Below are positions 1-39,885 of a stretch of 44,161 bases of DNA, in pieces (the stretch's first letter is position 1; the number at the start of each line of letters is the position of its first letter). The DNA lies in the NCBI GenBank assembly GCA_018645475.1, contig JABGWU010000266.1, forward strand, positions 1-44,161. Reading direction: 5' to 3'. The stretch is from Opitutia bacterium. Its GTDB lineage: Bacteria; Verrucomicrobiota; Verrucomicrobiia; Opitutales; Seribacteraceae. A program made the position numbers and the translations under genes. A model generated the notes under the pieces. That model was not told the origin of the DNA and ran no database searches. It was given only the letters and a program-made list of their open reading frames with translations.

Positions 1-1034
1 CAGAAAGTCTTGCCATAGAGCGTGCAAAATCACTTTTTGGAGCCGAACATGCCAATGTACAACCACACTCAGGAAGTCAGGCAAATACAGCGGTTTACTT
101 TGCAATGCTCCAACCACAGGATAAGATTTTGACGATGAGCCTTCAAGACGGTGGCCACCTTACCCACGGACATCCGAAAAATTGTAGTGGAATGCTTTAT
201 GAAGTTGTTAATTATGGGGTTAATCCAGAAACGGGATATATCGATTATGATTCCATAGAGGAAATCGCCAATCGAGAACTTCCAAAGTTAATAACTGTAG
301 GTGCATCGGCTTATCCTCGAATCATCGATTTTGAAAGAATGGGAAATATAGCCAAAGGTTGCGGTGCCCTTCTTCTTGCAGACATTGCTCACATTGCGGG
401 TCTTGTTGCTGCTGGACTTCATCCTTCTCCAGTGCCTCATGCAGACTTTGTGACCACCACTACACACAAGACCCTCCGGGGACCGCGAGGGGGCCTTATT
501 CTTTGTAAGGAGGAACATGTAAAACCAATCGATTCCGCGGTTTTCCCTGGCAATCAAGGAGGTCCATTGATGCATGTAATTGCAGCCAAGGCGGTATGTT
601 TTGCGGAGGCATTAAAACCTTCATTTAAAGATTACCAACAACAAGTGATCAATAATTCATCTGCTCTCGCATCAGCTTTATCAGAAAAAGGCTTTCACTT
701 GGTAAGCGGTGGAAGCGACAACCATTTAATGTTACTCGATCTTCGCCCTTCACATCCTGACCTTACCGGGAAACAAGGACAAATTGCATTGGATGGGGCT
801 AATGTTACTCTAAACCGTAATACCGTTCCAGGTGAAACCCGGAGTCCTTTTCAGACAAGTGGACTAAGGATTGGTACTCCTGCAGTAACCTCAAGGGGGA
901 TGAAAGAAAATGAAATGTCTGAAATTGCAAATATAATTTCTCAAGTATTAGCAAACACAGAAGATACAGATGCGATTGCAGATGCACAAAAGAAGGCACT
1001 TGCGCTAAGTGATCGTTTTGCTTTACCTTATTGA
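1..1034 (+). CDS. glyA: Serine hydroxymethyltransferase, 5' end cut by window
   Basis: This enzyme converts serine and tetrahydrofolate to glycine and 5,10-methylene-tetrahydrofolate in the cytoplasm, with PLP as cofactor. The reading frame is open from base 3, so the N-terminal part (roughly 80-100 residues by comparison with the family) lies outside the window. The visible part starts with the conserved [12 protein letters not shown] segment, then GGHLTHG, then the PLP-binding motif TTTTHKTL (Schiff-base Lys codon at 468-470) followed by GPRGG. The C-terminal domain is complete and ends in a TGA at 1032-1034. An internal ATG at 105 is not the start, because homology continues upstream of it. 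The next gene begins 41 bases downstream. The family assignment is certain. Confidence 0.97.
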
Positions 1035-4460: not shown

Positions 4461-5309
4461 ATGAAATTTGAAAAATATCACGCACTTGGAAATGACTATT
4501 TGGTGTACAATCCAAATGAAGAGAATTTTATATTTTCCGAATCGGACATAATTCGAATTTGCCATCGAAATTTTGGACTTGGGTCGGATGGAATTTTGGT
4601 TGGCCCTACACAATCACAACAAGCTACTTTTAAACTTCAAATTCTAAACCCGGATGGAAGTGAGGCTGAGAAAAGCGGTAATGGATTACGAATTTTCGCA
4701 AGATATTTAAGGGATATTGGAAAAGTAGACACGAACTCTTTCCAAGTAGATACTTTGGGCGGCATAGTTACATGTCAGGTTTCAGAAGATAAATCCATTA
4801 TTACGGTTGAGATGGGGAAAGTAAGTTTTCAGAGTGATGTTATTCCCGTCAACATTGATGGAGAACCAAGGGAAGTATGCAATGAGACAATCGAAGTAAA
4901 TGGAAGGGTTCTGAATTATTATGCCGCGACGATAGGAAACCCACATTGTGTAATCCCAGTTGAAAGTGTTAGCAAGGAACAGACGATTGAATTGGGTTCA
5001 TTTATTGAAAATCATCCTAACTTTCCGAATCGAACCAATGTACAATTTTTAGAAATCCTTGATCGCAACAGAATCAAAATCGAAATCTGGGAACGCGGAG
5101 CAGGTTACACACTTGCATCAGGAAGCAGTAGTTCTGCTGCCGGTGCGGTTGCTCGGAAAATGGGTGTCTGCGATGAAAGTATTACAGTTGAAATGCCAGG
5201 CGGAGATATAGGCTTGATTATCGACGATAATTTTAATGTTCAAATGACAGGTCCTGCAACCCGAGTGGCAACGATGGAACTGTATTCAGAATGCCTAAAA
5301 AATCATTAA
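4461..5309 (+). CDS. dapF: Diaminopimelate epimerase family protein with Ser in place of both catalytic Cys
   Basis: DapF interconverts LL- and meso-diaminopimelate for lysine and peptidoglycan synthesis using two cysteines as acid and base. This 282-residue protein aligns over the whole family length: KYHALGNDYL at the N-terminus, NPDGSEAEKSGNGLR at about 64-77 and ERGAGYTLASGSSSSA at about 211-226. In characterised enzymes the first motif reads ..CGNG.. and the second ..ACGTGA... Here both Cys are Ser: Ser72 (AGC at 4674-4676) and Ser220 (TCA at 5118-5120). The fold is clear but the chemistry is not. I have an impression that Ser-bearing homologues are annotated as DapF elsewhere, but I know of no functional proof. 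A TATAAT lies 7 bases before the ATG. The stop overlaps the convergent methyltransferase by 4 bases. Confidence 0.82.
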   Translation: MKFEKYHALGNDYLVYNPNEENFIFSESDIIRICHRNFGLGSDGILVGPTQSQQATFKLQILNPDGSEAEKSGNGLRIFARYLRDIGKVDTNSFQVDTLGGIVTCQVSEDKSIITVEMGKVSFQSDVIPVNIDGEPREVCNETIEVNGRVLNYYAATIGNPHCVIPVESVSKEQTIELGSFIENHPNFPNRTNVQFLEILDRNRIKIEIWERGAGYTLASGSSSSAAGAVARKMGVCDESITVEMPGGDIGLIIDDNFNVQMTGPATRVATMELYSECLKNH

Positions 5310-27217: not shown

Positions 27218-27700
27218 TCAGGGACTGATCGAGGGTTTTTCTTGATTTTCAGTTTCCTCAGCCAAAAGATGCCCGTGATCCTTATATGGTCTCAATAGAA
27301 AATGAGTGGCAGTTGAAAGTACGCCTTGAATTGTGGCTAACCGTTCAGATATGAACGAAGCAACAGACTTAAGATTCTTACCAGTAACAAATACTAAAAG
27401 ATCATATCCACCAGACATCAAATAACAGGATTCAACTTCTTCAAACTTAGAAATACGGAGAGCCATTCTATCAAACCCTCCCTCCCTTTCAGGGCTTATT
27501 TTAACCTCAATCACTGCCCTAACTTGTTCTGATTGACCCTGAATAGGATTCAATATTGGCATCCAGCCTAGCAAAGTCTTATTTCTCCGTAACTCTTCCA
27601 ACTCATTTTCAACTTCCTGTGGAGTGGATCCTAGAATTTTTGCCAACTTCTCGGGACGAGGGTCAGCAGTGTCTTGAAGTACAGTTAAGAGATCACTCAT
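27218..27700 (-). CDS. Lrp/AsnC family transcriptional regulator
   Basis: A 160-residue regulator with an N-terminal winged helix-turn-helix (RPEKLAKILGSTPQEVENELEELRRNKTLLGW) and a C-terminal RAM/AsnC ligand domain (VRAVIEVKIS..., ESCYLMSGGYDLLVFV, FISERLATIQGV). It likely senses an amino acid and controls the transaminase gene that follows it. The ATG has no properly spaced Shine-Dalgarno; instead a 9-base GGAGGTGAT lies 15 bases upstream (27716-27724, minus strand). Confidence 0.88.
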   Translation of the reverse strand: MSDLLTVLQDTADPRPEKLAKILGSTPQEVENELEELRRNKTLLGWMPILNPIQGQSEQVRAVIEVKISPEREGGFDRMALRISKFEEVESCYLMSGGYDLLVFVTGKNLKSVASFISERLATIQGVLSTATHFLLRPYKDHGHLLAEETENQEKPSISP

Positions 27701-27789
27701 TTTGGCGTTATGTATATCACCTCCACATGATTTCGTAAAGAAGCAAAGCCCAACGAGATAAGAATGGAATGAATGTTGTAATAAAGGGT

Positions 27790-32738: not shown

Positions 32739-33884
32739 TTATAGAATCTTATGAATAGATTGAAAATAAGACTGAGCTATTTTTCTTCGCCCGTAATTCT
32801 TACGATTTAAAATTACCTGATCTCGCATAGCCGATAACTGATCCGGATTATTTTTAAGATCAATAATGGTACGGGCAATTTTTTCAGGGTTAATTTTCTT
32901 AATACTCACTCCTGCACCAATCTTTGAAATAGACATGCTTAACTCTCCTTCGGGTCCAACTAATTGAGGTAGACCCGCCCCAATATAATCATAAACTTTT
33001 GCAGGAAATGCACTTTTCATTGCTGGTAAATCTCTTAATAAACAAATCCCCAAGTGACAACTTGCCAATTTGACGCTTAGGTCCTTTAGGCTCATCATTG
33101 GCATAACTTGTAAGTTAGGCTTATGGTATGAAAGTATTTCAACTGGAAGATCACCAATCATTAAAAAACGAATCTCAGAATCCAATTTCCCAACTAAATC
33201 AATTACTTTTAAATAAGTTTCATGATCATAAAATCGCCCAAGCCTTCCGTGATATACAACAGTAAATGAAGTATTTTTTCTTTTACCAAGTAATTCTTTA
33301 TTAAAGATATTTTCATCAAAACCGTTTCGTACCAAACGAACATCGACATCAGGAAATTCATCTTTAATTTCCTCAAATAATCCTAAAGTCACTGTGGTAA
33401 CTTGCTTTGCCCCGCGATAAACCGAGGTTTCTACACCTTGAAGTATTCTACCCAGAAAGCTCGATAATTTTAGAACTTCTAGATCGGCAAGAACACGAGG
33501 ATAACGATCACGCACATCAAAAATATAAGCAATGCCGGATAAACGAGCAAAAAACGCACATATACTGGCCATAAAAAAAGGAGGCGATGTAATGATACAA
33601 AGTCTGATTTTATTCTTTTTTAAAAAGATTCTTAATCCTAAATCAAAACCAAGAAGTAATTCTTGAATTAACCTTATTGGTAGTGCCGCTTTATTACTTG
33701 GAGTTGGGAAAAAAGATTTTTCCACTAATTTTTCATTTTCAGCAACCGAAGATGAGGACAAAACAACGGTTTTGAAACTTAGCTTCATTAGCTCGGCAAC
33801 CCATGGTATTACACGAGAAGCCGCTGCCGCAGGGATTGGAGAATATTCTGAAGAAACAACTAAAACCAATTCGTTCAAACGCAC
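32739..33884 (-). CDS. Family 4-type glycosyltransferase
   Basis: A 381-residue GT-B glycosyltransferase. The N-terminal domain begins LVLVVSSEYSPIPAAAASRV and the C-terminal nucleotide-sugar domain has VVYHGRLGRFYDHETYL (about 215-231), LMIGDLP, the later KVYDYIGAGLPQL motif with the typical donor-binding region, and an IARTIIDL tail helix. Start is GTG and, unlike most genes here, it has a proper Shine-Dalgarno (AGAAGGA, 33898-33892, spacing 7). It overlaps the preceding glycosyltransferase gene by 10 bases. Donor and acceptor are unknown. Confidence 0.85.
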   Translation of the reverse strand: MRLNELVLVVSSEYSPIPAAAASRVIPWVAELMKLSFKTVVLSSSSVAENEKLVEKSFFPTPSNKAALPIRLIQELLLGFDLGLRIFLKKNKIRLCIITSPPFFMASICAFFARLSGIAYIFDVRDRYPRVLADLEVLKLSSFLGRILQGVETSVYRGAKQVTTVTLGLFEEIKDEFPDVDVRLVRNGFDENIFNKELLGKRKNTSFTVVYHGRLGRFYDHETYLKVIDLVGKLDSEIRFLMIGDLPVEILSYHKPNLQVMPMMSLKDLSVKLASCHLGICLLRDLPAMKSAFPAKVYDYIGAGLPQLVGPEGELSMSISKIGAGVSIKKINPEKIARTIIDLKNNPDQLSAMRDQVILNRKNYGRRKIAQSYFQSIHKIL

Positions 33885-35020
33885 GACATATTCCTTCTAG
33901 ACAAAACTGCTTTATAGTCATTAACAACCCGTTGAGTTATTTGCCGCGGGTCATGCCAATTTTTCAAATAAGAAATTCCCCGCTCAGCCAATCTAATTCT
34001 TTCCTCATGGTTCATTTTCATTACCGATATAATTTTATTTTCTAATGTATTGGAATCAGCATTAATCATGGGTAATTCATTTAGCATTGCTTTTGGGACA
34101 AAACGCATCCCCCTACCACCTAAAAAACAAATCACTGGTCTTCCAATTGCAAGAACTTCAAGAGAGACAACCCCGTACCAGCCAATTACTAACTGATCTA
34201 TAAATAAATCGATTCCCTCGAACTTACTTTGTGCCTCTTGACGACTAACTCCTTCGATTAACTCAAGGCGAACGTTATGCCCCTTAGATCTCATTTTTTT
34301 AACTACATCAATCACATCATTGGTACCTTTTACGATACGATGGGTTGGTGCATGTCCGACAACAAATTCTTCACGATTAATGAAAGGCAGTACTTTTGCC
34401 TGCAAAGTTGATTCAGTAGCGTAAGGAAGGAATTCAGCACCTTTAGGTAAAACTTCTAAGAGGTCAGGATTTAAAGAATAGATTTTATCTGCTATTTCAG
34501 ATAAGAGAATTTTTTTTCTGCGAATTGATTGATTGCTATTTCCTGAGCGTGAAACGACAGATTCAGCAAGTCCATTTTTTTGGTATTTATCAATAAAACA
34601 TTTAGTTTCCCGTGCATCAGATCCCTGAAAAGTAAGAAAAATACATTTTGGATTAAGACGATAAACCGACATCTCGAATTGTTGTAATAATTTTGCGTAC
34701 ATCCTAATTAAAAATCTTAAGATCGAAGAAAATTTCTCTTCTCTAGGGTGTACCCCTGCACCAAAAAAAGGCGTTATAAATCTGCCATTGTTCAAATGAA
34801 CGATATCAGCTTTTGTCAAAATATTAAAAATCAATTTTATTCTTTGAACTTCAAGATTTAACAAACCACTATTCTTACCTGAAAGTAATGAATCGGATGA
34901 TTGTCCAATATAATTGGACTTCTCGGAAATACTTATACTATCAAGTCCAAGTTCTCTTTCATGCTTAGCGAGAACAGCGGGATTACCGCCAATTTGACTT
35001 GGGCAGTGAAAAACTTTCAA
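33875..35020 (-). CDS. Glycosyltransferase, GT-B fold (paralogue A)
   Basis: A 381-residue GT-B protein. It starts at TTG (no ATG or GTG in frame upstream) with VFHCPSQIGGNPAVLAKHER, a common opening of glycosyltransferases that act on surface glycans. The C-terminal donor domain contains HAPTHRIVKGTNDVIDVVKK, IDLFIDQLVIGWYGVVSLEVLA and GRPVICFLGGRG. The same blocks occur in the genes at 35050-36252 and 38575-39885, showing a shared origin. It overlaps the next gene by 10 bases, typical of an operon. Specificity unknown. Confidence 0.8.
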   Translation of the reverse strand: MKVFHCPSQIGGNPAVLAKHERELGLDSISISEKSNYIGQSSDSLLSGKNSGLLNLEVQRIKLIFNILTKADIVHLNNGRFITPFFGAGVHPREEKFSSILRFLIRMYAKLLQQFEMSVYRLNPKCIFLTFQGSDARETKCFIDKYQKNGLAESVVSRSGNSNQSIRRKKILLSEIADKIYSLNPDLLEVLPKGAEFLPYATESTLQAKVLPFINREEFVVGHAPTHRIVKGTNDVIDVVKKMRSKGHNVRLELIEGVSRQEAQSKFEGIDLFIDQLVIGWYGVVSLEVLAIGRPVICFLGGRGMRFVPKAMLNELPMINADSNTLENKIISVMKMNHEERIRLAERGISYLKNWHDPRQITQRVVNDYKAVLSRRNMSCV

Positions 35021-35049
35021 TTTAAAAGTTTTATCAAGACTTGGATGAG

Positions 35050-36252
35050 TTAAGGACTATTGGGGTTAGATGGCATTACTCCAATCTGTCCATTTATTTC
35101 ATGAAAAACGGAACCAATATAATCAATGGAATGATGTTCTTTTACATATGTAGGACCACGGTTCGACAAATCTTTTAGTAAATCATAGTCATGAATTAAA
35201 ACCCGTAAATCACTCAATAATTTCCTTGGTTCTGTACTGAAGATAGGTGGATCATTATCGTTCAAAAGCAAGGTGTTTTTGTATAACTCAAGCAAATCCT
35301 CTCGCAAGTAACATACAACTGGAGTTCCCAAAGATAATGCCTCCAAAGTAAACATTGCATACCATCCTATAACTAATTGATCTATAACTAAATCTGCACT
35401 CTCAATTTCTTTTAAAACTACATCATTACTGACTTTTTCCAGTAACTTTAATTCAATGTTCTCGCCTTCCTCCTGAAGTTTTTTAATTGCCTCAATAACA
35501 AATTCAGTGCCTTTGATGTTTCGATGATTAGGTGCATGTAAAATACGGATTTTGTTGCCGTTTTTAGGAAACTTGAAATCCTTTTTATTTGCTCTCTCTA
35601 AATCTATTGAAAAATGAGCAATCATAAGGGTGTCCCAATGATGCATATAGTCTACCCAGTCACATCCACCGATCACATGGTTGGCGGATTTTGACCAAAG
35701 ATCTATTTGTGTTTCGATTCTATTATTTCGAAATTTGTAATTTGGATAATCCAAGGACAATGTATGCTTGTACAAAAGATTGGGGGTTCTATCCATTTTA
35801 GAAATATCGCCACCATAAGGCATAACGACCGTTTTTATGCCAGCAATACCTAGAAGAAAAGGCTCAAGCCGCCACAACAAAATGGATGATTGAAGACAAC
35901 CGCCATTGAAGTACAGATATAGGCATTTATGTCGAAAGATTGAATAAATAAAATCAATGTGCAGAACACGAATAAACAAAGTGTGCAAAAAATTAATTTT
36001 AAAAACGAATTTGGTATCGAAGTTGTCCGTAATAAAAAATAATTTACTGACAAATGTCTCTACTTCATAGCCAAATAATTGAAGTGCTTTTTTATGATAA
36101 ACATTATTAATCATTGGAATTGGACCCAATCCAATATCAAACCTTCTTGGATAAAATCTTGAAAGAAATGTAAATATTAGTAACGGGAAAAAATATAAAA
36201 TTTCAAAGATTCCTAAAACAAACTTCAAGGTACTTAACTGCAACAATTTCAC
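35050..36252 (-). CDS. Glycosyltransferase, GT-B fold (paralogue B)
   Basis: A 400-residue protein with a hydrophobic N-terminal stretch (about 7-32) that may anchor it to the membrane, then GLGPIPMINNVYHKKALQL. Its C-terminal donor domain reads LHAPNHRNIKGTEFVIEA, then IKKLQEEG and ADLVIDQLVIGWYAMFTLEALSLGTPVVCYL, closely matching paralogue A in the second block and paralogue C in the first. The start is GTG and shares bases with the TGA of the preceding epimerase gene (GTGA, 36252-36249). It transfers an unknown sugar in the polysaccharide pathway. Confidence 0.75.
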   Translation of the reverse strand: MKLLQLSTLKFVLGIFEILYFFPLLIFTFLSRFYPRRFDIGLGPIPMINNVYHKKALQLFGYEVETFVSKLFFITDNFDTKFVFKINFLHTLFIRVLHIDFIYSIFRHKCLYLYFNGGCLQSSILLWRLEPFLLGIAGIKTVVMPYGGDISKMDRTPNLLYKHTLSLDYPNYKFRNNRIETQIDLWSKSANHVIGGCDWVDYMHHWDTLMIAHFSIDLERANKKDFKFPKNGNKIRILHAPNHRNIKGTEFVIEAIKKLQEEGENIELKLLEKVSNDVVLKEIESADLVIDQLVIGWYAMFTLEALSLGTPVVCYLREDLLELYKNTLLLNDNDPPIFSTEPRKLLSDLRVLIHDYDLLKDLSNRGPTYVKEHHSIDYIGSVFHEINGQIGVMPSNPNSP

Positions 36253-37115
36253 ACTAAATCATGAATATTTTCTGATAACGAAAATATTGGCGAATGGAGA
36301 TTCTGCTTCATTAAAGAAATATCGGCTATAATATCACTTGTACCTCCCCCGGAATTTTGAAAAATTGGATCTTGTCCGGTAAACTCACCAATATATTCGG
36401 AAATTTGTCGAAGAGATAAATTCTCAGGACCAGCCAAGTTATAAATTGAAGAATTAGTTTCATTCAATAAAGCAATAACAGATTTTGCTGCATCATCTAC
36501 ATGAATAGGGTTTATACTTATACCATTTTCATTATCCAGAACTATCGGAGTATTGTTACTAATGTTATCGTATAAGCGAGGAAGAAGCATATTCCTTTTT
36601 TGTCCTGAACCGTAAATAAAAAATGGTCGAATAATAGAAGTTTGTAAAATTGCTGAGTAAGTTTGAACTAAGATTTCACCACTTATTTTACTTCCCAAAT
36701 AAAGTCCTAATTTACATTGTTCTAATATGGGAGATTTTTCATTTAAAGTGTCAATTGAGGGTGAATAAACTCCGCCCGAAGATGCGTAGATAAAATGGGA
36801 GACATTATTCTTTCTAGCATATTCCAAAAGTTGATGCGTAGACGAAACATTTACTTTAAATACATCAGTTGCTCCATCTGGAAAATCTTTATATCTATTC
36901 GATTGAGCGAGGTGTAAAACACAAGAAATATTTATTGGAAAATTGTCAAAAGCAATGTCTTTAGAAAGATCTGCGTAAACATAATTTATCGAATCTAGTT
37001 TAATAGGTGGTTCAGACTTAACAACAGCATGAACTTCCCAATTTTCTTTAACTAAATTATTACAAATGTTTCGTCCTAATAAACCATTTGCTCCGGTAAC
37101 TAATATTTTTTTCAC
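36249..37115 (-). CDS. NAD-dependent epimerase/dehydratase (extended SDR)
   Basis: A 288-residue nucleotide-sugar modifying enzyme. It has the Rossmann motif VTGANGLLGRNICNNL (5-20), HLAQSNRYKDFP, YASSGGVYSP and a YLGSK active-site motif, with an Arg-rich segment IRPFFIYGSGQKRNM later. It is shorter than GalE and lacks a clear family-specific signature, so it could be a 4-ketoreductase, epimerase or dehydratase. Start is GTG (37115). It follows the flippase by 24 bases and overlaps paralogue B by 4 bases. Confidence 0.82.
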   Translation of the reverse strand: MKKILVTGANGLLGRNICNNLVKENWEVHAVVKSEPPIKLDSINYVYADLSKDIAFDNFPINISCVLHLAQSNRYKDFPDGATDVFKVNVSSTHQLLEYARKNNVSHFIYASSGGVYSPSIDTLNEKSPILEQCKLGLYLGSKISGEILVQTYSAILQTSIIRPFFIYGSGQKRNMLLPRLYDNISNNTPIVLDNENGISINPIHVDDAAKSVIALLNETNSSIYNLAGPENLSLRQISEYIGEFTGQDPIFQNSGGGTSDIIADISLMKQNLHSPIFSLSENIHDLV

Positions 37116-37139: not shown

Positions 37140-38582
37140 TCATGATAAATCGCCACGAGAATCAAATCTAAAATGATTCCGTATTACGAAAAACCCTAAT
37201 ATTCCAAAAAGTAACAACAATGTAAGTTTCATTACAAAACCCGGAAATTCTAGAATTTCCGAACAAAGTTCAATGCTACAAAATAACAGACCGAATCCAA
37301 GCAATAACAAAATAAAAATTTTCAACTTTTTAAAGAATATACCATGCAACTTTTCAGAATAATACATATAGGAAAAAGTTATAAAAATATAACAAATCAA
37401 AGTGGCTAAAGAAGCACCTGTTGCCCCATAAGCAGGTATCAAAAGGTAATTAATTGTTATGTTAAGAATTAATGAAATCCAGGCAATGCGAGAGAACAAA
37501 AAAGTCTTTTTTTCTATGGAAATCCCGATTGCAGTTATTTGTTGAGTCCCATACAACCCGACACCAAAACTTAGAAAAATTAAAGCAATTGCACTATCTC
37601 GGTATGATTCGTTCATCAAAAGGTTTATAATTTCTCCGCTAAATAGACTTATAGTCCCCGATATAAAAAGTATCACGAAAAGAAAAACTAAGAGTAAATC
37701 GGCGTAAATATTTTTATAAATATTTGGGTTATCTGTCTTTAATTTTATGGCAATAGGGCCCCATGCCATACCGAAAGCGGTACTAATAAATAATATAACA
37801 CTAGAAAACCTGTAAGCCACAGAATAATTCCCCACTTCATCTAAAGAAGTAAAAGCAGCAAGCATCCAACGATCGACTGACCCAAGTAACCAAAAAGCAA
37901 TTCCAGCAAAAATAAAAGGATAACCAAATCTTAAAGTTTCTCGCAACCAAACTTCAGAGACTTTTAAGGTAATATCCTTCTTTATTAAAAAACATGCAAA
38001 AGGAAACAATACTACCATTACAATTGCTTGAGCGAATAGGAAACCATCCAACCCCCACCCCAATACAACTACTGCAAAACAGGCAAATATCGAACCTATT
38101 ACTTTGCTTGACAATGAAATGCTAAGAAAACGAAAAGGTGCTAGATGCAACCGAGTTATATCTAAAATATAAACAAACCAAATCTTAAAAATCATTAGAA
38201 CAATTGCAGACGCAATAGCGACCCAAGTCATAGTAACAAATGGAAATGTAAAATATTTTGAGTATATAAATAATGTTAAACAGCCAATAAAAAGAATTAT
38301 TAAACCCAATACTATTTGAATTAAAAAAGCCGAAGACACTAAGGTCGGTCGATTATATGGTTTTGTATTTTCGTCCCAATAAAATCGCTGCACTGAATTA
38401 TTTAATCCACATTGAACCAACATTCCGAAAAGACCTGTAGTAGTAACAATGAGTTCTAGCAGTCCAATTGACTTCGGGGGTAATACAGCAGCTATTAGGG
38501 GAAATGTTATGAGGGCAATTATTTTAGCCCCAAAGTCCGCTCCTCCATATATTATTGAATCCTTTGCGAGGAGTTTAAGAAT
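37140..38582 (-). CDS. wzx: Wzx-type O-antigen/exopolysaccharide flippase, non-canonical start
   Basis: A polytopic MATE-like flippase that moves lipid-linked repeat units across the inner membrane. The first ATG is at 38423 (427 residues), but the same frame continues upstream through 53 more residues (KLLAKDSIIYGGADFGAK, then LPPKSIGLLELIVTTTGLFG) that are plainly the usual Wzx N-terminus: the first helix and the GLLEL loop leading to RFYWDE. No ATG, GTG or TTG occurs between the upstream in-frame stop (38609-38607) and 38423. I place the start at ATT (38582-38580), giving 480 residues, a normal Wzx length; ATA codons further upstream are alternatives, as is a frameshift from the preceding gene, whose stop (38577-38575) lies inside this extension. 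About 12-14 hydrophobic segments follow. Confidence 0.75.
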   Translation of the reverse strand: MLKLLAKDSIIYGGADFGAKIIALITFPLIAAVLPPKSIGLLELIVTTTGLFGMLVQCGLNNSVQRFYWDENTKPYNRPTLVSSAFLIQIVLGLIILFIGCLTLFIYSKYFTFPFVTMTWVAIASAIVLMIFKIWFVYILDITRLHLAPFRFLSISLSSKVIGSIFACFAVVVLGWGLDGFLFAQAIVMVVLFPFACFLIKKDITLKVSEVWLRETLRFGYPFIFAGIAFWLLGSVDRWMLAAFTSLDEVGNYSVAYRFSSVILFISTAFGMAWGPIAIKLKTDNPNIYKNIYADLLLVFLFVILFISGTISLFSGEIINLLMNESYRDSAIALIFLSFGVGLYGTQQITAIGISIEKKTFLFSRIAWISLILNITINYLLIPAYGATGASLATLICYIFITFSYMYYSEKLHGIFFKKLKIFILLLLGFGLLFCSIELCSEILEFPGFVMKLTLLLLFGILGFFVIRNHFRFDSRGDLS

Positions 38583-39885
38583 TGGATGTTTGTATCTTAT
38601 TATTTTTTAAAGGATGACAAACTTTGGGAGTTCGATTTGGATACTCGCCTAGAATTGGGTGGTACATGTTGATCAATGACTCTCGATTTCCATGTAAATA
38701 ATTAATAACTTCTTTAAACAAATACTGACCTGCTTCAAAACCGTGGTATTTTTCTACATAAACTCTACCTGCTTCACCTAAATTAACCCTTAGTTCAGGA
38801 TTCAAAATAAGCGAACGCATGTTTTGTAATAGATTTTCCGGGCAAGTAGAAACGATAGGACATTCATCTAAAAAAGACCACCGTCTTAGATGCCTGGTAT
38901 AAGAATCATCTTCTAAATTTGACAAAACTGGTAATCCACAAGCCAATCCTTCCAAACCATTTAAAGCATGCCCTGTAAAAATTATTTGCTCTACTAAAAT
39001 ATCAGTATCTTGTTGTAGAATTTTTTTGACTTCATAATTTTTTAATTTTTCCAATAAATTAAGCTCCACCTTAAGTCCCTCTTCTTGAAGCTTTTTCACC
39101 GCTTCAATTATAAATTCAGATCCCTTAAACCCTCTAAAATTTGGAGCATGGGTTATTTTAACAACACCAGAGGTTCCGTTGGCTTGACTATTCCTTTGCG
39201 AAACATGCCATTGCTTTAAGTCAATAATTAATGGAGAGGGAACGAGAACATCCCAACGTCCAAAACCATCTGGACCCATAAATCCTGGGATTACAACATC
39301 TGCTTTTGCACACCAATGATCAACGCGATTAGAAATTTGGCTCTGATTCATTGCGGCTAGTGGCAATGAGCTATTCAAGCCGTGTATCAAAGAAACTGAC
39401 CTTACATTCTTATATGAATATGAGTCACATCCAAATGGAATAATTACTATTTTCTTATTTGCTAACTTTAAAAAGAAAGACTCAAAGTTTCTTAATATCG
39501 TTCTCCATAAAAAATATCCGTTAAAGGATATAAAATAAATATTGTATTTAAATAGTGAATCAATAAAGGCGAAATAGTATTTTAAAAATAAAGGAATAAA
39601 TAAGTATTCGTCTTGAATAACCCTGTCGTACTCATTTCTTTGATTAATTAGGTAACAATAACTATCAGTGAATGTTTCCGAATTAAAACCTGCTTCTTTC
39701 ATGCAATTGGACCAATAAACATTGTTTATAATAGGAGCTTCCCCCCACACCAAACTCGGGGTTTTATTTTTTCGAACAAAAAACCTGGCAATTATTGCAC
39801 CAAAAGTAATAAGAGGTAAAAGAATTGGAAATAAAATACATTCTATAATTGAAATAATTAAATATCTAAATTTTTGCTTACTCAT
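38575..39885 (-). CDS. Glycosyltransferase, GT-B fold (paralogue C)
   Basis: A 436-residue protein with a hydrophobic N-terminal segment (about 7-32) and then WGEAPIINNVYWSNCMKE, similar to paralogue B. The donor domain has ITHAPNFRGFKGSEFIIEA, VKKLQEEG and DILVEQIIFTGHALNGLEGLACGLPVLS; the DQLVIGWY of the other two paralogues is replaced by VEQIIFTGHALNG. It is joined to the formyltransferase gene by TAATG (39885). Its own stop (TAA, 38577-38575) lies within the extended flippase frame, so the two overlap by 8 bases if that start is right. Confidence 0.78.
   Translation of the reverse strand: MSKQKFRYLIISIIECILFPILLPLITFGAIIARFFVRKNKTPSLVWGEAPIINNVYWSNCMKEAGFNSETFTDSYCYLINQRNEYDRVIQDEYLFIPLFLKYYFAFIDSLFKYNIYFISFNGYFLWRTILRNFESFFLKLANKKIVIIPFGCDSYSYKNVRSVSLIHGLNSSLPLAAMNQSQISNRVDHWCAKADVVIPGFMGPDGFGRWDVLVPSPLIIDLKQWHVSQRNSQANGTSGVVKITHAPNFRGFKGSEFIIEAVKKLQEEGLKVELNLLEKLKNYEVKKILQQDTDILVEQIIFTGHALNGLEGLACGLPVLSNLEDDSYTRHLRRWSFLDECPIVSTCPENLLQNMRSLILNPELRVNLGEAGRVYVEKYHGFEAGQYLFKEVINYLHGNRESLINMYHPILGEYPNRTPKVCHPLKNNKIQTSNS

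Follow-up and report, generated by a model that had tools for sequence, protein, structure and literature searches.

A flippase gene without a canonical start codon in two species of one genus, best read as AUU initiation by termination-reinitiation

The locus described here raises the question of how a flippase gene is translated when no standard start codon precedes its conserved N-terminus. The window, a stretch of 44,161 nucleotides from an Opitutia bacterium (assembly GCA_018645475.1, contig JABGWU010000266.1), carries on its reverse strand a frame that follows an in-frame TAA (38609-38607) and remains open from 38606 to 37143. Its first ATG, GTG or TTG is the ATG of codon 54 (Table 1), and the 53 codons from 38582 to 38424 spell ILKLLAKDSIIYGGADFGAK...PPKSIGLLEL... 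The initial annotation, which had pointed out this start-less stretch before Met 38423, gave its coordinates and residues correctly. The gap alone proves nothing, since start-less runs of 53 codons are not rare in long frames: 607 of 6160 such stretches, which overlap one another and come from a six-frame count with shadow frames kept in, lacked ATG, GTG and TTG in long frames of sampled DNA from the same genome. The gap becomes meaningful through homology, because the N-termini of six homologues align to this stretch, the match to PF01943 begins at residue 5, and the one close relative has the same defect.

Table 1. Features of the flippase junction and its neighbours (positions in the window).
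Feature	Position	Strand	Remarks
NAD-dependent epimerase/dehydratase, downstream	36249..37115	-	PF01370; GTG start in the window and G013
MOP/PST-family polysaccharide flippase (Wzx-like)	37140..38582	-	480 codons, ATT 38582 to TGA 37142-37140
First in-frame ATG, rejected as start	38421..38423	-	Protein would lack helix 1 and almost all of helix 2
First 53 flippase residues	38424..38582	-	Helix 1 and most of helix 2; AlphaFold model; pN/pS against G013
Inferred start codon ATT (AUU), read as fMet	38580..38582	-	ATT CTT AAR in the window and G013
Overlap ATTCTTAA of flippase start with upstream-gene stop	38575..38582	-	8 nt; identical geometry in G013
Upstream gene, probable glycosyltransferase	38575..39885	-	436 aa; ends ...KIQTSNS*

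The codons from 38582 to 38424 had been taken for a normal Wzx N-terminus, and this was borne out: when the 480-residue protein was aligned with its six homologues, similarity began at codon 1 and not earlier. PF01943 (Polysacc_synt) matched residues 5-278 (E 1.5e-20; 74.2 bits against a curated cut-off of 28.2) and PF13440 matched with an E value of 1.8e-10, and the NCBIfam Wzx_EPS and HfsF models matched far below their cut-offs. The AlphaFold model, built from seven sequences, reached a pTM of 0.82 and a mean pLDDT of 80.7, with helix 1 spanning residues 2-33, helix 2 spanning residues 36-57 and a pLDDT below 50 for residues 1-6. It resembles MurJ (6nc6_B, TMq 0.75), WzxE (9g9n_A, TMq 0.66) and MATE transporters in the PDB. 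As modelled, the first 53 residues would make up helices 1 and 2 of a MurJ/WzxE-like fold, so that a start at Met 38423 is not credible.

The close relative, G013, is another species of the same genus, and its flippase is identical to that of the window at 320 of 473 aligned residues (68%). The cluster is syntenic in both, and the G013 copy of the upstream gene is 79% identical and ends ...KIKFYNS*. The search for a start codon at this junction in close relatives found none in G013 either, whose flippase frame contains no canonical start before the GTG of codon 23. As the first canonical codon differs between the species, no shared internal start rescues the gene. Codons 1-53 gave a pN of 0.132 and a pS of 0.753, compared with 0.205 and 0.729 for the whole gene; judged by these values, the N-terminal stretch is at least as constrained as the whole gene and is under purifying selection. 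Met 38423 was rejected as a start because the 53 residues before it are under this selection and form helices 1-2, and the GTG of G013 was rejected because the residues before it are likewise selected and belong to the same helices. In nine other syntenic genes inspected, an ATG, GTG or TTG lies near the aligned N-terminus in both species.

These comparisons also bear on two explanations in which no unusual initiation takes place. A point mutation confined to the strain, or an assembly error, could be suspected in a genome as fragmented as that of the window (375 contigs, 82.6% complete), but the independent assembly of G013, at 68% protein identity, has the same missing start and the same junction shortened by 1 nt; unless both assemblies contain an error at this very place, the explanation is refuted, and we give it almost no weight. 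The initial annotation had allowed for such an error beside a real non-AUG start or coupled reinitiation; of its proposals, a non-AUG start or coupled reinitiation is the one supported. The second explanation is that the flippase, having lost its start, has ceased to be produced, its role perhaps being served by a second flippase on contig C92. A pseudogene would fit the absence of a canonical start, the ATG-started second copy in the same assembly and the pN of codons 381-470, which at 0.37 is the highest of five segments. A gene dead since before the species split would have decayed, however, whereas 480 codons are free of stops in both species and codons 1-380 show a pN of 0.13-0.21 against a pS of 0.64-0.79; we therefore consider a pseudogene very unlikely. 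Between the window and G013, synonymous divergence approaches saturation, which places the loss of the start far back and indicates that the gene has been maintained ever since.

With regard to the codon that is used, the AUU at 38582, which had been proposed as the first candidate, is the only near-cognate codon before the conserved LAKDS motif that is common to the window and G013. The sequence reads CCA ATT CTT AAA in the window and ACA ATT CTT AAG in G013, the codon preceding ATT being different, and in G013 the frame is closed by a stop 12 nt ahead of the ATT. Other near-cognate codons are present in the window, but the ATA codons at 38603 and 38600 have no counterpart in G013, given that stop, and a start at the ATA within KDSII would remove the LAKDS motif; initiation at any of these three is highly improbable. 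No canonical start is compatible with the conserved N-terminus, as is asked of AUU-initiated genes, and we infer that the AUU itself is used.

The remaining five homologues are more distant (41-45% identity) and all have canonical starts: ATG in the C92 flippase, G034, the Herbaspirillum MAG L004 and the SAR86 MAG L003, and TTG in G024. The ATT position lies one codon after the ATG of C92, G034 and L004, which is aligned with the CCA of the window and the ACA of G013, and two codons after the TTG of G024, and an AUU at this codon is found in two of the seven aligned homologues, those of the window and G013. The junction is also dual coding, with AAT TCT TAA, the end of the upstream gene in both species, in one frame and ATT CTT AA in the other. 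Since only two sequences carry the feature, selection on AUU is inseparable from dual coding or shared descent.

Six junctions with the same upstream gene tail could be compared, namely those of the window, G013, C92, G034, L004 and G024. The HPL-like motif in the tail of the upstream gene and the D-S motif of the flippase are separated by 55 nt at the junctions of the window and G013, and by 56 nt at the other four. Start and stop overlap by 8 nt in the former two; the overlap measures 4 nt (TTGA) in G024 and a single nucleotide in C92, G034 and L004. Counted from the motif, the upstream gene of the window and G013 runs on for 13 codons, three more than the 10 of C92, G034, L004 and the G024 fragment. 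Overlaps of -1, -4 or -8 nt mark pairs suited to termination-reinitiation, and the window and G013 have the -8 form. Among coupled gene pairs the commonest distances are -4, -1 and -8, with -8 in third place; -8 is described as the shortest possible overlap in phase 1 and as reinitiating less efficiently than shorter overlaps (PMC10666635).

Taken together, we consider it probable that the flippase is a working gene whose AUU start is reached by termination-reinitiation after the ancestral loss of 1 nt. The simplest route starts from an ancestor with a 1-nt overlap (TGATG or TAATG), in which a net loss of 1 nt at the junction would have removed the ATG and changed the phase of the flippase with respect to the gene before it. 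The upstream frame would then have run three codons further, to the TAA inside ATTCTTAA. A ribosome terminating at the UAA (38577-38575) would hold UCU in its P site; a back-shift of 2 nt would then place AUU in the P site, where reinitiation with fMet-tRNA could follow. We are less sure of a further step, in which flippase output would be low, coupled to that of the upstream gene and responsive to IF3. IF2 has been reported to aid reinitiation and an excess of IF3 to lower it (PMC2268962). In Staphylococcus aureus reporters, output from AUU and AUA starts was about 10% of that from AUG, with one AUA reaching up to 30% in rich medium (PMC13009471). If the figure of about 10% applies, low coupled output of the flippase is to be expected, and it is plausible here.

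The initial annotation had also considered a +1 frameshift from the preceding gene. A glycosyltransferase-flippase fusion would result if ribosomes shifted in this way, or the transcript slipped, close to the upstream stop; the two frames have the +1 relation that this requires, TCT TAA is common to the window and G013, and an A6 run lies just upstream in the window. The A6 run is absent in G013, however, and because the flippase frame of G013 opens only three codons before the ATT, a shift there would be confined to the last few upstream codons. By inspection of the window against G013, neither a conserved slippery P-site codon with stop of the RF2 type (CUU UGA) nor any other shared slippery run was found, which weakens the frameshift proposal. 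It can further be reasoned that the P-site tRNA, once shifted by +1 from TCT, would lie opposite CTT and pair poorly, and the other five homologues have start codons of their own. A fusion is accordingly unlikely in our estimation.

The initiation context was examined for signals that could assist the AUU. A core Shine-Dalgarno (SD) tetramer was present at 14 of 155 conserved starts, compared with 20.6 expected from background, and these starts thus show no SD signal; they were drawn from sampled stretches (for example, the window and L066-L190), all but at most a few of them from this genus. At the flippase AUU, no strong extended SD motif was found in the window or G013, with duplex energies of -1.5 and +1.6 kcal/mol, respectively, as against -2.2 to +0.3 kcal/mol for four canonical homologues, all computed with a generic anti-SD sequence. 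SD-less initiation of this kind resembles that of Bacteroidetes (PMC6847099, PMC3155529). A more specific reading of the proposed reinitiation is that terminated ribosomes choose their start by position (-8) more than by codon identity, so that loss of the ATG was tolerated and the AUU has been kept, with a low coupled dose of flippase. This reading, which draws on the lack of an SD signal in the lineage and on the retention of the AUU until synonymous sites approached saturation, is tentative.

A general AUU habit acting through IF3 (the IF3-AUU loop) was also considered and rejected, as all 21 full-length infC frames recovered from the genus have ATG as their first canonical codon. There were 22 loci in total; the remaining one, L065, lies at the edge of a contig, scored weakly and below the family cut-off, and was left out. 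Five of the 27 genus genomes, G013 among them, had no infC match. With ATG at infC throughout, there is no other sign of AUU use in the lineage, and this counts against the AUU explanation.

To place the flippase among other genes, frames of at least 80 codons in sampled stretches were surveyed after removal of pairs above 97% identity. At least five aligned codons preceded the start in both members of 73 of the 484 frame pairs, a set in which antisense shadows and aligned leaders were frequent. Dropping 104 pairs (shadow frames, or alignments over less than 60% of the shorter frame) left 380, mainly among G000, G009 and G013, and nine of these had at least 12 aligned columns before the first canonical start of either member. 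In seven of the nine, the starts were no more than three columns apart and identity upstream fell below the overall value, which is the pattern that leaders or overlaps would give, whereas in the flippase pair, also among the nine, identity was 0.82 upstream against 0.67 overall. The ninth pair is an 89-codon frame near infC (L053, about 38-304, forward strand) aligned to G009, with 0.58 against 0.53 and starts that are not aligned; whether gene or shadow, it counts against the uniqueness of the flippase. That short frame aside, the 380 homologous pairs hold no other clear gene without a conserved start. An earlier, smaller survey had covered 66 frames with matches.

Further relatives of the flippase with at least 40% identity were found neither in 134 relatives and 27 genus genomes nor in samples of 384 class genomes and 372 order genomes, the last by profile search. 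Viral contigs held no homologues, plasmids gave distant matches only, and the genome contigs searched held two homologues. In 42 genomes of the family, together with samples of 372 from the order and 387 from the phylum, further copies of the upstream gene above 50% identity came from G008 and G041 alone, with no flippase frame directly after them. The copy in G041 and one of those in G008 have the short type of ending, and another G008 copy ends IVDESS*. Within the window genome, the 5.6-kb contig C92 (L025) carries a second pair consisting of the end of a glycosyltransferase and a flippase, with the ATG in a TGATG overlap, and this flippase is about 42-43% identical to that of the window. 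In G024, the stretch of contig C12 between the stop of the upstream gene and the TTG-started flippase (L042, about 4734-4973) contains a disrupted flippase N-terminus along with another copy of the upstream gene's C-terminus; these remnants are likely the trace of a flippase replacement by recombination.

The flippase belongs to a polysaccharide operon comprising an asparagine synthase-like amidotransferase, WbmS-like deacetylase, formyltransferase, probable glycosyltransferase, flippase and epimerase, with a polyprenyl glycosylphosphotransferase and GalE further down. The probable glycosyltransferase has no Pfam match and is named from a match to a family 1 glycosyltransferase at 30% identity and 32% coverage. 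Neighbours such as the polyprenyl glycosylphosphotransferase suggest that the flippase transports a lipid-linked sugar. In both the window and G013, the four genes that follow the flippase (32739-37115) have GTG, GTG, TTG and GTG, respectively, as their first start codons, and weak starts therefore look common in this operon. Elsewhere in the window, a leader (27701-27781, reverse strand) that precedes a gene of 160 residues (27218-27700) is 63% identical in frame over 27 codons, and the ATG of that gene is at a position common to the window and G013; the conserved leader is possibly an upstream element.

The missing start is thus best read as a real oddity common to two species, and it has practical as well as mechanistic consequences. 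Gene callers limited to ATG, GTG and TTG would miss the first 53 residues of the window flippase and the first 22 of its G013 counterpart. If the AUU is used, the junction is a natural case of coupling standing in for both an SD sequence and a standard start codon, and it makes testable whether reinitiating ribosomes relax their choice of start codon. It also bears on the origin of non-canonical starts, which here apparently lies in a net loss of 1 nt at an overlap.

A survey of titles and abstract openings, which does not establish absence from print, found neither an AUU-started flippase nor an AUU start in an overlapped gene pair. The window flippase shares its fold and Pfam family with Wzx/PST flippases of the MOP superfamily (WzxE, MurJ), but five of the six Wzx/PST homologues aligned begin with ATG or TTG, G013 being the exception. 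The E. coli genes infC (IF3) and pcnB are AUU-initiated (PMC9410913) and resemble the present case in having an AUU start in a conserved protein; in the flippase, by contrast, the start overlaps an upstream stop within an operon and has no SD sequence, and infC of this genus has ATG. In S. aureus, the non-canonical starts of cvfC1 (AUU) and ccpN (AUA) are conserved across species, as here, but are described with extended SD pairing (PMC13009471), and none was found at the flippase AUU. The RcsD-Hpt of Yersinia likewise combines an AUU start with a frame change in the history of the gene, but that start is internal to a single gene and has a putative ribosome-binding site (PMC10191623). A match in geometry is provided by termination-reinitiation at -8 overlaps (PMC10666635), which the flippase junction shares exactly, except that the start here is AUU and not a standard codon. 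AUU starts are thus known elsewhere, and what is unusual is their occurrence in an overlapped, SD-less setting in a membrane flippase.
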